This document shows positions 12,707 through 33,649 of a DNA stretch of 64,000 nucleotides, piece after piece. The stretch lies in NCBI RefSeq assembly GCF_900112025.1, contig NZ_FOKL01000001.1, positions 484,762-548,761 on the forward strand, in the 5' to 3' direction. How positions within the stretch are numbered: position 1 is the first letter of the stretch; each line of letters opens with the position of its first letter. The translations under genes and the position numbers were made by a program. The DNA is from Janthinobacterium sp. 344. GTDB lineage: Bacteria; Pseudomonadota; Gammaproteobacteria; Burkholderiales; Burkholderiaceae_D. The notes below the pieces were generated by a model. It worked only from the letters and a program-made list of their open reading frames with translations, was not told where the DNA came from and did not search any database.

Positions 12707-13204
12707 ATGAAAAATATACTCAAATTAGCAACACCGATGCTGTTTGCCGCGCTGGCCGGCTGCGCCAGCTGGAACGTCCCGCCGCCGCAGCCGGGCGAAC
12801 CGCGCGCCGCCGTGGAGGCGCGCCTGGGCCGGCCGACGAATGTCTACCAGTTGCCCACGGGCCCCGAACTGGAATACGCCACGGGCCCATATGGCCAGGC
12901 CACCTACATGGCCCGCTTCGGCCCCGACGACAAGCTGATTTCCTATGAGCAAGTCCTCGACACGGCAGGCTTCGCCCGGGTCAAGGTCGGCGTTTCAACC
13001 GAGCAGGACGTCCTGCACTTGTTGGGCAGGCCGACGGAAACCTCGTATCTGTCGATCCCGAAACTGCACGTCTGGTCCTACCGCTACAAGGAATCGGGCG
13101 TGTGGGATTCCATGATGCACGTGCACTTCGACCAGGACGGCATCGTGCGCATGATGATGAACGGGCCCGATCCTGCCAAAGAAGAGCGCCGCTTCTTCTG
13201 GTAA
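12707..13204 (+). CDS. Outer-membrane lipoprotein, SmpA/OmlA (BamE)-like
   Basis: A 165-residue lipoprotein. The signal sequence MKNILKLATPMLFAALAGC ends in a lipobox (LAGC, lipidated Cys19). The mature part contains two copies of a BamE-like pattern: PGEPRAAVEARLGRPTNVYQLPTG with GQATYMARFGPDDKLISYEQVL, and VGVSTEQDVLHLLGRPTETSYL with HVHFDQDGIVRMMM. AGGAG precedes the ATG by eight bases. BamE itself is shorter (~110-130 residues), so this is a two-repeat relative rather than a certain BamE. It is convergent with leuA, and one hairpin repeat lies between them. Confidence 0.83.
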   Translation: MKNILKLATPMLFAALAGCASWNVPPPQPGEPRAAVEARLGRPTNVYQLPTGPELEYATGPYGQATYMARFGPDDKLISYEQVLDTAGFARVKVGVSTEQDVLHLLGRPTETSYLSIPKLHVWSYRYKESGVWDSMMHVHFDQDGIVRMMMNGPDPAKEERRFFW

Positions 13205-13222
13205 GACATTACTGGCGCAACA

Positions 13223-13340
13223 ACGCCTGATAAAACCGTAGCGAGCGGAAGAGAGAGGTGGCCAAGAAGCGCAACCGTACTCTAGTACGGTGAGCATCGC
13301 AGGCCACCTATACCGACGCGTAGTAGGTTGAATCAGGCGT
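13223..13340 (-). repeat. Dispersed intergenic hairpin element, copy A (after leuA)
   Basis: Outer arms ACGCCTGAT (13223-13231) and ATCAGGCGT (13332-13340) pair perfectly. Inside are AGGTGGCC/GGCCACCT and, innermost, ACCGTAC-TCTA-GTACGGT. The core (AACCGTAGCGAGCGG on one side, ACGCGTAGTAGGTT on the other) recurs in the elements at 30751-30872 and 32273-32392. The element begins 3 nt after the leuA stop. It has no coding potential and no poly-T tail. Confidence 0.85.
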
Positions 13341-13343
13341 CCT

Positions 13344-14891
13344 TCACTCAGGTTGCGGGTCGATGCGCTCATCCTTCGCGTGTAATTTGTTGAGCGCCGA
13401 CAAATACGCCTTGGCCGAGGCGACGATGATGTCCGGGTCGGCGCCCACGCCGTTGACGATGCGTCCGTCGCGCGACAGGCGCATCGTCACTTCGCCCTGC
13501 GACTGCGTGCCCGTGCTGATGGCGTTGACGGAGAACAAGACCAGCTCCGCGCCGCTGGCGGCCGCGCTTTCGATGGCGTTGACGGTGGCGTCGACGGGGC
13601 CGTCGCCCTCCCCCACACAGCTGCGCTGTTCGCCGCCGACGAGAAACTCCACGCGGGCGCGCGGCACGGCGCCCGTCGTCGATTGCTGCGTCAGCGAAAT
13701 GAAACGGTAGTGCTCACTCTCCTGCGCCTGCTGTTCCTCGCTGACGAGAGCCATGATGTCTTCGTCGAAAATCTCGGATTTCCGGTCCGCCAGCTCCTTG
13801 AAGCGGAGAAAAGCCGCGTTGACTTCCGCCTCGGAGTCGAGCGCGATGCCCAGCTCCTGCAGGCGCTGCTTGAAGGCGTTGCGGCCCGACAGTTTTCCCA
13901 GCACGATCTTGTTGGCCGTCCAGCCCACGTCCTCGGCGCGCATGATTTCATACGTCTCGCGCGCCTTTAAGATGCCGTCCTGGTGGATGCCGGGCGCGTG
14001 CGCAAAGGCGTTCGCGCCCACGACGGCCTTGTTCGGCTGCACGGCAAAGCCCGTGATCTGCGACACCATCTTGGATGCCGCCACGATTTGCGTTGTATCG
14101 ATGCCCACCGTCAGGTTGTAGTAGGCGGCGCGCGTGCGCAGCGCCATCACCACTTCTTCCAGCGCCGTATTGCCGGCCCGCTCGCCCAGGCCATTGACCG
14201 TGCACTCGATCTGCCGCGCGCCGCCGATCATGACGCCGGCCAGCGAATTGGCCACGGCCAGGCCCAGGTCGTTATGGCAATGAACAGACCAGATGGCCTT
14301 ATCGGAATTCGGTATGCGTTCGCGCAAGCGCTTGATGGTCGCGCCGAAGATCTCGGGCACGGCATAGCCCACCGTATCGGGGAAGTTGATGGTGGTGGCG
14401 CCCTCGGCGATCACGCCCTCCAGCACGCGGCAGAGGAAATCCTCGTCGGAGCGGCTGCCGTCCTCAGGGCTGAATTCGATGTCGTCCGTAAACTGGCGCG
14501 CGTAGCGCACGGCGTTTTGCGCCTGTAATAACACTTGCTCGGGCGTCATGCGCAGCTTCATCTGCATGTGCAGCGGCGACGTGGCGATGAAGGTGTGGAT
14601 GCGCTTGCGTTCGGCCGGCGCCAGCGCTTCGGCGGCGCGGGCGATGTCACGGTCGTTGGCGCGCGACAGCGAGCAGATGGTCGATTCGCGCACGGCGCCG
14701 GCAATCGCCCGGATCGACTCGAAGTCGCCTTGCGAGGCGGCCGCGAAGCCCGCCTCGATCACGTCGACCTTCATGCGCTCGAGCTGCCTGGCGATGCGCA
14801 GCTTTTCCTCGCGCGTCATGGACGCGCCCGGCGATTGCTCGCCGTCGCGCAAGGTGGTGTCAAAAATGATGAGCCGGTTACTGGTATGCAT
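13344..14891 (-). CDS. leuA: 2-isopropylmalate synthase
   Basis: A 515-residue enzyme condensing acetyl-CoA with 2-oxoisovalerate, the first committed step of leucine synthesis. The metal-dependent TIM barrel shows [14 protein letters not shown] (residues 9-22), [30 protein letters not shown] and [19 protein letters not shown]. The C-terminal LeuA allosteric domain, which binds leucine, covers roughly residues 385-515 ([29 protein letters not shown]). Substrate comes from the ilv pathway encoded at 19.7-23.1 kb. The gene ends within 3 nt of hairpin element A. Length and motifs are normal for the long-form enzyme. Confidence 0.97.
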
Positions 14892-30750: not shown

Positions 30751-30872
30751 GAGTGTCGGACAGAAGCGCAGCGCGCGGCAGTGATTTGCGGCCGGGAAGC
30801 GCAACCGCACTCTGGTACGGCGGGCATCGCCGGCCGCGCAGCGCGACGCGCGGCAGCTGGTGTCCGGCACTC
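30751..30872 (-). repeat. Dispersed intergenic hairpin element, copy B (between hscB and hscA)
   Basis: Outer arms GAGTGTCGGACA (30751-30762) and TGTCCGGCACTC (30861-30872) pair over 12 bp with one G-U. Inside, GCGGCC pairs with GGCCGC, and the innermost CCGCAC-TCTG-GTACGG has one mismatch. The core matches copies A and C (GGGAAGCGCAACCG, GGGCATCGCCGGCC, GCGACGCG). The right arm abuts the hscB stop codon with no spacing. Confidence 0.85.
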
Positions 30873-31388
30873 TCAGGCCTCGATGGCCTCGTAGGCAAAA
30901 CGCACTTCCTCGCCGAATTTGTCGAGGAACATCAGGGCGCGCACGCTTTGCGCGGCATTCACGTAGTCGCCGCCATCGAGCTGGGCGGCCACCTGGGCCA
31001 GCAAGGCCTTGCGTTCGCCGCGCAGCTGGCGGTCCAGGGCGTCGAGCGCGTCGGCATCCTTGCCGGCACGCGCATCGCCCAATTCCTCGCGCCATTCCAT
31101 CTGCTGCATCAGGAAGCTGACCGGCATGGCCGTGTTCGACTCCGTCTGCAGGTCGACGCCATTGATCTCGCACAGGTACTGCGCGCGCTTTTGCGGGCTT
31201 TTCAGGGTCTGGTAGGCTTCATTGGCGCGCGTGGCCCACTGCATGGCGACGCGCTTTTCGGCGCTGCCGGCATTGATGAAGCGGTCGGGATGGACCTTGC
31301 CCTGCACGTCGCGGTAAGCCGCGTCGAGCGCATGCATGTCGAGCGCGAACTGCGCCGGCAACTGGAATAATTCGAAGTGGTTTTGCAT
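30873..31388 (-). CDS. hscB: Fe-S assembly co-chaperone HscB
   Basis: A 171-residue J-protein that brings IscU to HscA and stimulates its ATPase. The J-domain starts MQNHFELFQLPAQFALD and carries the HPD triad at residues 33-35 (KVHPDRF). The C-terminal helical domain that binds IscU follows (AMPVSFLMQQMEWREELGDA ... VRALMFLDKFGEEVRFAYEAIEA). The start at 31388 gives the standard length; upstream codons in frame lack homology. It is followed directly by hairpin element B. Confidence 0.96.
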   Translation of the reverse strand: MQNHFELFQLPAQFALDMHALDAAYRDVQGKVHPDRFINAGSAEKRVAMQWATRANEAYQTLKSPQKRAQYLCEINGVDLQTESNTAMPVSFLMQQMEWREELGDARAGKDADALDALDRQLRGERKALLAQVAAQLDGGDYVNAAQSVRALMFLDKFGEEVRFAYEAIEA

Positions 31389-32217: not shown

Positions 32218-32272
32218 TTTGATGCTCCTTTAATATTCTTGCCGGCCCCGTTCACGAGGCAAATTGATCTTC

Positions 32273-32392
32273 AAGTGCCTGGAAAACCGTAGCGAGCGGC
32301 AGTGAGTTGTGGCCGAGAAGCGGAACTGTGCCGGGGCACAGTGAGCATCGCAGGCCGCAAATCGCGACGCGCAGTAGGTTTAACAGGTGCTT
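32273..32392 (-). repeat. Dispersed intergenic hairpin element, copy C (between iscS and iscU)
   Basis: Outer arms AAGTGCCTG (32273-32281) and CAGGTGCTT (32384-32392) pair over 9 bp with two G-U pairs. Inside, TTGTGGCC pairs with GGCCGCAA, and the innermost ACTGTGC-CGGG-GCACAGT is perfect. The core AAAACCGTAGCGAGCGG and GTGAGCATCGCAGGCC are identical or nearly so to copy A. The right arm touches the iscS stop codon. Confidence 0.87.
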
Positions 32393-33649
32393 TTAGTGGG
32401 CTGCCCATTGGATGGAGTTAATGTCGATTCCCTCTTTGAACATGTCCCACAGCGGCGACAGTTCGCGCAATTTGTGTACTTTCGATTTCAGCAGGTTCAC
32501 GGCGAAGTCGATGTCTTCCTCGGTCGAGAAGCGGCCGATGGTGAAGCGGATCGAGCTGTGCGCCAGTTCGTCACTGCGGCCCAGGGCGCGCAGCACGTAC
32601 GATGGTTCCAGGCTGGCCGAGGTGCAGGCCGAACCGGACGACACGGCGATATCCTTGATCGCCATGATCAGCGACTCGCCTTCGACGTAGTTGAAGCTGA
32701 CGTTCAGGTTGTGCGGCACGCGGTGGTCCATGTCGCCGTTGATGTAGACTTCTTCGATCTCCTGCAAGCCCTTGGCCAGGCGGTCGCGCAAGGCCTGGAT
32801 GCGGCCGATTTCGCTGTCCATCTCTTCCTTGGCGATGCGGAAGCTCTCGCCCATGCCGACGATCTGGTGCGTCGGCAGGGTGCCCGAACGCAGGCCGCGC
32901 TCGTGGCCGCCACCGTGCATCTGCGCTTCCAGGCGCACGCGCGGCTTGCGGCAGACGTACAGGGCGCCCACGCCTTTCGGGCCGTAGGTTTTGTGCGCCG
33001 TGAAGGTCATCAGGTCGACCTTGGTCTTTTGCAGGTCGATGACGACCTTGCCCGTCGCTTGCGCGGCGTCGCAATGGAAGATGATGCCTTTCGAGCGGCA
33101 GAACGCGCCGATCTCGTCGATCGGCTGGATCACGCCGATTTCGTTGTTCACCAGCATGACCGACACGAGGATGGTATCCGGGCGCACGGCCGCGGCCAGC
33201 TGCTCGACGGTGATCAGGCCGTTGTCCTGCGGTTCCAGGTAGGTCGCCTCGAAGCCGATGCGTTCCAGTTCGCGCACCGTGTCGAGCACCGATTTATGCT
33301 CGGTCTTGACGGTGATGATGTGCTTGCCCTTGGTCTTGTAGAACTGTGCCGCGCCCTTGATGGCCAGGTTGTTGCTTTCCGTCGCGCCGGAGGTCCAGAT
33401 GATTTCGCGCGGATCGGCGTTCACCAGGGCCGCCACGTGGCCGCGTGCCTCTTCCACGGCTTTTTCCGCCGTCCAGCCGTACATGTGGCTGCGCGATGCC
33501 GGATTGCCGAACTGCTCGCGCAGGTAGGGAATCATCTTGTCGGCGACGCGTGGATCGATCGGCGTCGTGGCCGAGTAATCCATGTAGATCGGGAAATGCG
33601 GTGCGGTTTCAAAGTGCACTTGGCCTACGTTTTTTTCTGGGGCGTTCAT
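32393..33649 (-). CDS. iscS: Cysteine desulfurase IscS
   Basis: A 418-residue PLP enzyme that takes sulfur from cysteine for Fe-S clusters and tRNA thiolation. The PLP lysine is Lys220 ([11 protein letters not shown]) and the persulfide Cys342 lies in [10 protein letters not shown]. The cofactor motif [11 protein letters not shown] and the C-terminal SIQWAAH are present. It is 14 residues longer than E. coli IscS because of an N-terminal extension. The ATG at 33649 has AGGAG six bases upstream; an in-frame start five codons earlier lacks support. It lies 40 nt after iscR. Confidence 0.97.

Follow-up and report, generated by a model that had tools for sequence, protein, structure and literature searches.

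Three hairpins of about 120 nt behind leuA, hscB and iscS of Janthinobacterium sp. 344 belong to a family that we regard, with a probability of about 0.6, as miniature mobile elements of the ERIC kind, hairpin-shaped and non-coding. Its members occupy about a hundred dispersed places, their core lies between inverted arms, their presence or absence changes site by site, and in one branch of the family they are flanked by 3-bp TNA duplications. The 120-nt branch follows a strong rule of stop codon and orientation. The three hairpins lie in a stretch of 64,000 nucleotides (the window), of which a first-pass annotation had been made.

Copies in the window and in the genome

Below, A denotes the plus strand of the window and B the sense strand of leuA, hscB and iscS. 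Copy 1 (13221..13342, minus or B strand) stands behind leuA (2-isopropylmalate synthase, 13344..14891, minus) and is convergent with a plus-strand ORF ending at 13204; it scored 135.6 bits with R1, a covariance model built from 28 copies. The isc operon holds the other two copies. Copy 2 (30751..30872, minus, 104.2 bits with R1), the most diverged of the three, lies between hscB (30873..31388, minus) and hscA, and copy 3 (32272..32393, minus, 124.5 bits) between iscS (32393..33649, minus) and iscU. We thus recovered the three elements where the first-pass annotation had placed them, all in the same orientation and, as counted there, 3, 0 and 0 nt behind the stops of leuA, hscB and iscS. By its iscS, the genome matches Janthinobacterium fluminis at 95%. 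At the leuA stop (window 13341-13346), the TAG of relatives is GAG and the TGA one codon later is used, closer to the element.

The outer arms pair within each of the three copies. They had been described as fully different in sequence, which holds for these three and fails as a rule, most genomic copies carrying RACRCCTGAC / GTCAGGYGTY or near variants. The left side of the supposedly shared core is degenerate in the hscB copy and reads GAAGCGGAAC in the iscS copy. Folding z-scores of the three copies were -5.3, -3.8 and -3.3 for the minus strand and -6.2, -2.9 and -4.8 for the plus strand; in five of the six cases none of 200 shuffles folded as well, and in the sixth 3 of 200 did. On the sense strand, no T run of an intrinsic terminator follows the hairpin, either in the three window copies as read or in the 3'-flank composition of 58 copies. 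Over the whole window, Rfam at gathering scores returned tRNA alone (a tRNA gene occupies 2079-2160 on the minus strand) and nothing at the element, and a search of the three copies at E <= 5 gave no match at the element and none reaching a family threshold.

The further copies that had been expected in the genome are many: the R1 search returned 125 rows corresponding to 108 distinct places once opposite-strand matches of the same place were merged, and blastn with one copy as query returned 42 genomic matches. The element of the 120-nt branch is a single long hairpin of about 118 nt, with the genus consensus (A orientation) RACRCCTGAC-AAAACCGTAGCGAGCGG..stem..GAGAAGCGCAACCGTAC-loop-GTACGGTGAGCATCGCAGG..stem..CGACGCGCAGTAGGTTT-GTCAGGYGTY and ends of the CGACACCTGAC type. 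Some copies depart from this, such as the one at C8:181399, whose arms are quite unlike the consensus yet well paired. At C13:70907-71373 three copies stand in a row, two of them partial. There is also a subtype with one or two extra GGGGGCGCCGAG-like segments, found in the leuA gap of G029 (L281), in G061 (L331) and in own copies such as C20:262081; in L281 the apical loop region contains one such segment and a bulge contains a near-complementary one, so that the two could pair over a long range.

The relation to stop codons was measured on genes predicted by a simple caller based on codon usage, and was checked by an ORF-only test that had its own null. The stop of the upstream gene was within 15 nt of the 5' end of the sense (B) strand at 88 of the 108 places; among the others, five were near a stop at the other end only and 15 near none. 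The commonest distances were +2 (25 places), -1 (12), 0 (10), +3 (8), +1 (7) and -8 (7), where -1 means that the stop overlaps the first base of the arm and -8 that a TGA lies inside the arm. Both neighbours were called at 107 places, 78 of which had a stop within 3 nt or overlapping; if insertion and orientation were uniform, 12.3 would be expected. Where a single neighbour had its 3' end towards the element, it was the B-side one in 53 of 63 cases; the nearer stop was again the B-side one in 36 of 40 convergent pairs, and divergent gaps numbered four. The ORF-only test found a stop on the B side in 86 of 105 places and on the other side in 25 (null 0.079 per side). Both the 15-nt and the 3-nt counts thus bear out that placement and orientation are non-random, and the initial picture, in which a recurrent element with compensating arms is tied in a single orientation to stop codons, stands. 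Insertion linked to the lagging strand was tried and rejected: 75 places in G030 and 70 in G014 showed no bias, the best values over all origins being 61% and 59%.

Nearness to stops is also a property of REP sequences, and a REP/BIME element that depends on a RAYT (Y1 transposase) for its movement is a conceivable, though very improbable, identity for the family. GTAG occurs twice in the consensus and, according to PMC3733652, GTAG ends of REPs often provide a TAG stop; according to PMC12306157, many REPs of E. coli are no more than 15 nt away from a stop and are said to stall ribosomes. Matches to Y1_Tnp were present in 40 of 40 genus genomes, but these included G013, G027 and G034, where R1 matches nothing, and the occurrence of Y1_Tnp does not follow the number of copies. 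The three own Y1_Tnp matches are each more than 8 kb from all 108 places and so are not flanked by the repeat, and the element is about 118 nt long and has duplications in one branch, all of which speak against a REP.

Filled and empty alleles and the mode of movement

Presence of the element varies among sister genomes. Among 30 genus loci listed for each gap, iscS was filled in eight (the own genome and seven others), and leuA had eight intact copies and two remnants. Filled and empty alleles were also recovered at two more sites, C12:197813 (7 of 30 alleles intact, three remnants or deletion forms) and C17:1086545 (3 of 30 filled). An orthologous 64-kb stretch was compared in 11 genomes; its 21 copies (E <= 1e-4) occupied eight sites, all in B orientation and 0-6 nt behind the native stop. 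Orthologous sites therefore show filled and empty alleles, one of the marks of a non-autonomous DNA transposon (MITE), and the element is mobile, as had been supposed, in the sense that such alleles differ between sister species. The empty alleles that were read keep the native stop and have no element arms. At C17:1086545 the insertion is directly before the native stop and a TAA is supplied by the end of the element.

Several side observations concern these gaps. The leuA matches at G018:C1:4729148-4730688 fall into two overlapping pieces, as if frameshifted. L451 (G017) is a short deletion form with its outer arms kept and most of the core gone, as expected for a deletion within a hairpin. 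In sister species, unrelated palindromic repeats of the GGGGTCAGACCC and GTAGGTCGGATTAG types occur in the same spot behind the stop, both in the leuA gap (L266, L267, L286) and in the C12:197813 gap (L433-L455), as if this spot were a shared niche for hairpin elements.

The first-pass annotation had offered a particular route of movement, in which the core inserts into the loop of an existing terminator hairpin and inherits local arms. Its proposed check for an empty hairpin went against it, element arms being absent from every empty allele read at the orthologous sites compared above. Some gaps do contain other small hairpins, GGCCCC..GGGGCC behind iscS and GCGCCAG-T-CTGGCGC behind hscB in several relatives; in the filled iscS allele of G029 the local hairpin is intact downstream of the element, which consequently lies between stop and hairpin and not in a loop. 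Most genus arms share a single consensus, which indicates that the arms travel with the element. Copies with unlike yet well-paired arms, such as C8:181399, and arms that are specific to a shared site while the cores vary would fit insertion into loops, which we nevertheless hold to be hardly probable at all. At the leuA and G003 sites the arms are alike across the filled species and the core subtype differs, a pattern that we read as gene conversion.

The junctions differ between the two branches of the family. At the G062 site a TGA stands at both ends of the element and a single TGA in the other ten genomes; at C12:197813 a TGA is at both ends in six of the seven intact alleles, with a junction that is not cleanly readable because the empty alleles mostly carry other repeats. 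The G029 and G035 sites each have a stop-like trinucleotide on either side, but not the same one. Among 85 own copies, 31 had TNA at +3..+5 and 23 had it at -5..-3; since both sides had it in only nine and the letters were identical in three, target duplication is not established for the genus. The 142-nt branch gave another result. In G056, for which 27 of 31 matches were counted (30 loci were available, and L335, L347 and L364 were left out as of another type or partial), identical 3-mers flank 22 of the 27 copies, 21 of them TNA, and this branch therefore moves like a DNA transposon. Stops were near its two ends in 8 and 5 of the 27 G056 copies (null 0.046), and in 9 and 7 of 20 loci from other families (null 0.071). 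The 142-nt branch thus behaves like a transposon without an orientation rule. The flanks of the 120-nt branch are TGA/TGA in 3 of 40 and otherwise mixed, those of G056 are TNA, and neither amounts to the TA flanks of ERIC; TA-like flanks were seen, by eye, in the ACATAG-armed copies only. A TNA target fits some IS5-family groups. Such a target does not by itself explain the single orientation of the 120-nt branch, nor the scarcity of copies elsewhere in gaps.

Distribution, paired structure and strand asymmetry

In the genus, 34 of 37 genomes (own included) had at least one match, many of them at least 58; no match occurred in G013, G027 or G034, and a single one in each of G001, G021 and G022. 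In the 40 iscS loci searched, out of 80 from named relatives beyond the near group, R1 gave no copy at E below 0.1. The order-wide and class-wide searches scored 8 or 9 candidates per genome, so their counts are lower bounds: with R1, at least 53 of 399 genomes and at least 32 of 159 genera of the order matched at E <= 1e-5, and with R2, at least 16 of 369 genomes of the class (own included), mostly with a form of 142-155 nt that has an extra nested stem. Among 40 distant loci from 29 genomes and 11 families, picked from the best-scoring order-wide matches and including at least two pairs (L386/L389, L397/L398) that look like the same gene in sister genomes, 32 had a stop within 15 nt of the B start and 13 had one equally close to the other end (null 0.072). 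The distant loci thus keep the stop rule although their arms are unlike those of the genus. In genus g90 (four loci read) the stop is instead 8-9 nt from the opposite end. Plasmids and phages gave zero matches with one genus copy as query, and plasmids zero matches with one distant 120-nt copy. In a PMC subset, core strings retrieved unrelated papers only, and the literature on repeats, palindromes, MITEs and structured RNA at the genus or family level held no description of the element; within that literature we know of no report of it.

The pairing of the arms, which was predicted to persist in additional copies, does so order-wide. Over 44 copies, 96.7% of 1671 cells are paired and 31 of 38 pairs change on both sides, with a covariation score of 0.678 against 0.190 for shuffled and at most 0.118 for slid alignments. 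Several internal-loop letters are invariant or almost so throughout the order. Near-invariant letters and strong covariation are what a functional structured 3'-UTR element, kept behind stops by selection and propagated chiefly through descent and gene conversion, transposition being minor or past, would be expected to have. The stop rule across 11 families with unlike arms, and the leuA and G003 sites with their constant arms and varying core subtypes between species, agree with it as well. It is opposed by the patchy presence at iscS (8 of 30), leuA (8 intact and 2 remnants of 30) and C17:1086545 (3 of 30), by the genus genomes with no match or with one (three of each among 37), and by the better fold of the antisense strand. 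We consider this explanation rather unlikely, and a mobile element of the ERIC kind the better account of the same data.

The strand asymmetry is itself pronounced. The A (antisense) strand is the more stable one in 97 of the 108 copies (mean -64.5 versus -57.5 kcal/mol), which does not favour a role at the mRNA level. In the outer arms, G.T exceeds A.C on the A strand, with 81 versus 36 among the 980 cells of 98 copies and 24 versus 9 among the 400 cells of the 40 distant copies, counts that are not independent because the sequences are related. The models R1, R2 and R3 all derive from a single strand, and the comparison of strands may be skewed by this. Both asymmetries would suit folded single-stranded DNA of the antisense strand as the form recognised or moved, comparable to attC sites or to the ends of IS200/IS605. 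We find this improbable, given that the sequences counted are related and the models share that orientation, that copies show no replication-strand bias (leading strand in 33 of 75 places in G030 and 37 of 70 in G014, with the origin assumed at 0), and that the TNA duplication of G056 points to double-strand transposition. An integron attC reading and an antisense sRNA were considered as well and not adopted.

Possible kinship with ERIC and comparison with known systems

The longer branch provides moderate evidence, from sequence comparison, for a distant kinship with ERIC. A 142-nt copy searched against plasmids gave partial-length matches in two records, from Aeromonas caviae and Yersinia frederiksenii, which R3, the model of the 142-nt branch, scored at 88.6 and 60.1 bits; the same model gave the window copies 55.9, 48.2 and 20.2 bits. 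With filters off, the best R3 match in an E. coli locus was its ERIC, aligned from end to end on the same strand at 19.9 bits (E 4.1e-4). Five further ERIC copies gave 27.1, 14.8, 10.1 (core only) and 8.9 bits (core only) and no match, so that ERIC was the best match of the locus, on the same strand, in five of the six ERIC loci; the best control for R3 reached 13.0 bits in 78,565 bases, and two of the five positive ERIC scores are below it. R3 misses ERIC with default filters, and the scores of R2 at ERIC, 10.4 bits or less, do not exceed those it reaches elsewhere. The first-pass remark that no named family matches has to be qualified for the longer branch, whose model recognises several ERIC copies, if not every one.

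For the mobile element of the ERIC kind we propose that a putative transposase encoded elsewhere moves it into TNA trinucleotides. A hit on a TAA or TGA stop would duplicate the stop and leave the gene whole, and copies elsewhere or in the other orientation would tend to disappear. The base of the hairpin would then be located at the terminating ribosome, which should open it, and the opened hairpin might alter the processing or decay of the upstream mRNA, by analogy with Yersinia ERIC, for whose transcripts an orientation-dependent, ribosome-induced RNase E cleavage is proposed in PMC2229807. If the ribosome does open the base of the hairpin, orientation and distance from the stop would matter; one possibility is that A-oriented copies are purged because the mRNA then receives the more stable hairpin.

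A wider proposal is a class-wide superfamily of mobile hairpins, ERIC included, with one core and exchanged ends, of which one branch would have become a stop-anchored, ribosome-triggered switch of mRNA processing, the antisense fold being separately selected and perhaps recognised during movement. We put it forward tentatively, as having a rather small chance of being correct as a whole. The origin, relatives and placement rules of ERIC-like repeats are unclear, and the relative described here spans Burkholderiales and further gammaproteobacterial families. The family suggests that one structured core can be borne by different transposon ends, and its natural filled and empty alleles, together with the sharp rule of stop and orientation, make the proposed ribosome-coupled effect on mRNA testable at many sites.

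Compared with known systems, REP/BIME sequences are likewise palindromic, intergenic and frequently near stops, but they consist of units of 20-40 bp tied to RAYTs, a tie that we did not find for the element. The ERIC (IRU, RU-1) of enterobacteria resembles it in having about 120-130 nt, one long hairpin, no coding capacity and many dispersed intergenic copies. The R3 alignment runs end to end on the same strand in three of six ERIC copies and covers the core in two more, and an apical hairpin with GGAG / TGA loop letters looks, by eye, common to both. ERIC differs in its largely different core sequence and in its ends, given as TA in PMC2229807; one E. coli copy is found 15 nt downstream of yeiL, its orientation being opposite to the rule of the 120-nt branch. 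With the MITEs of DDE transposons the element shares inverted ends and, in G056, TNA duplications, whereas the core here is conserved while ends and flanks vary between lineages.
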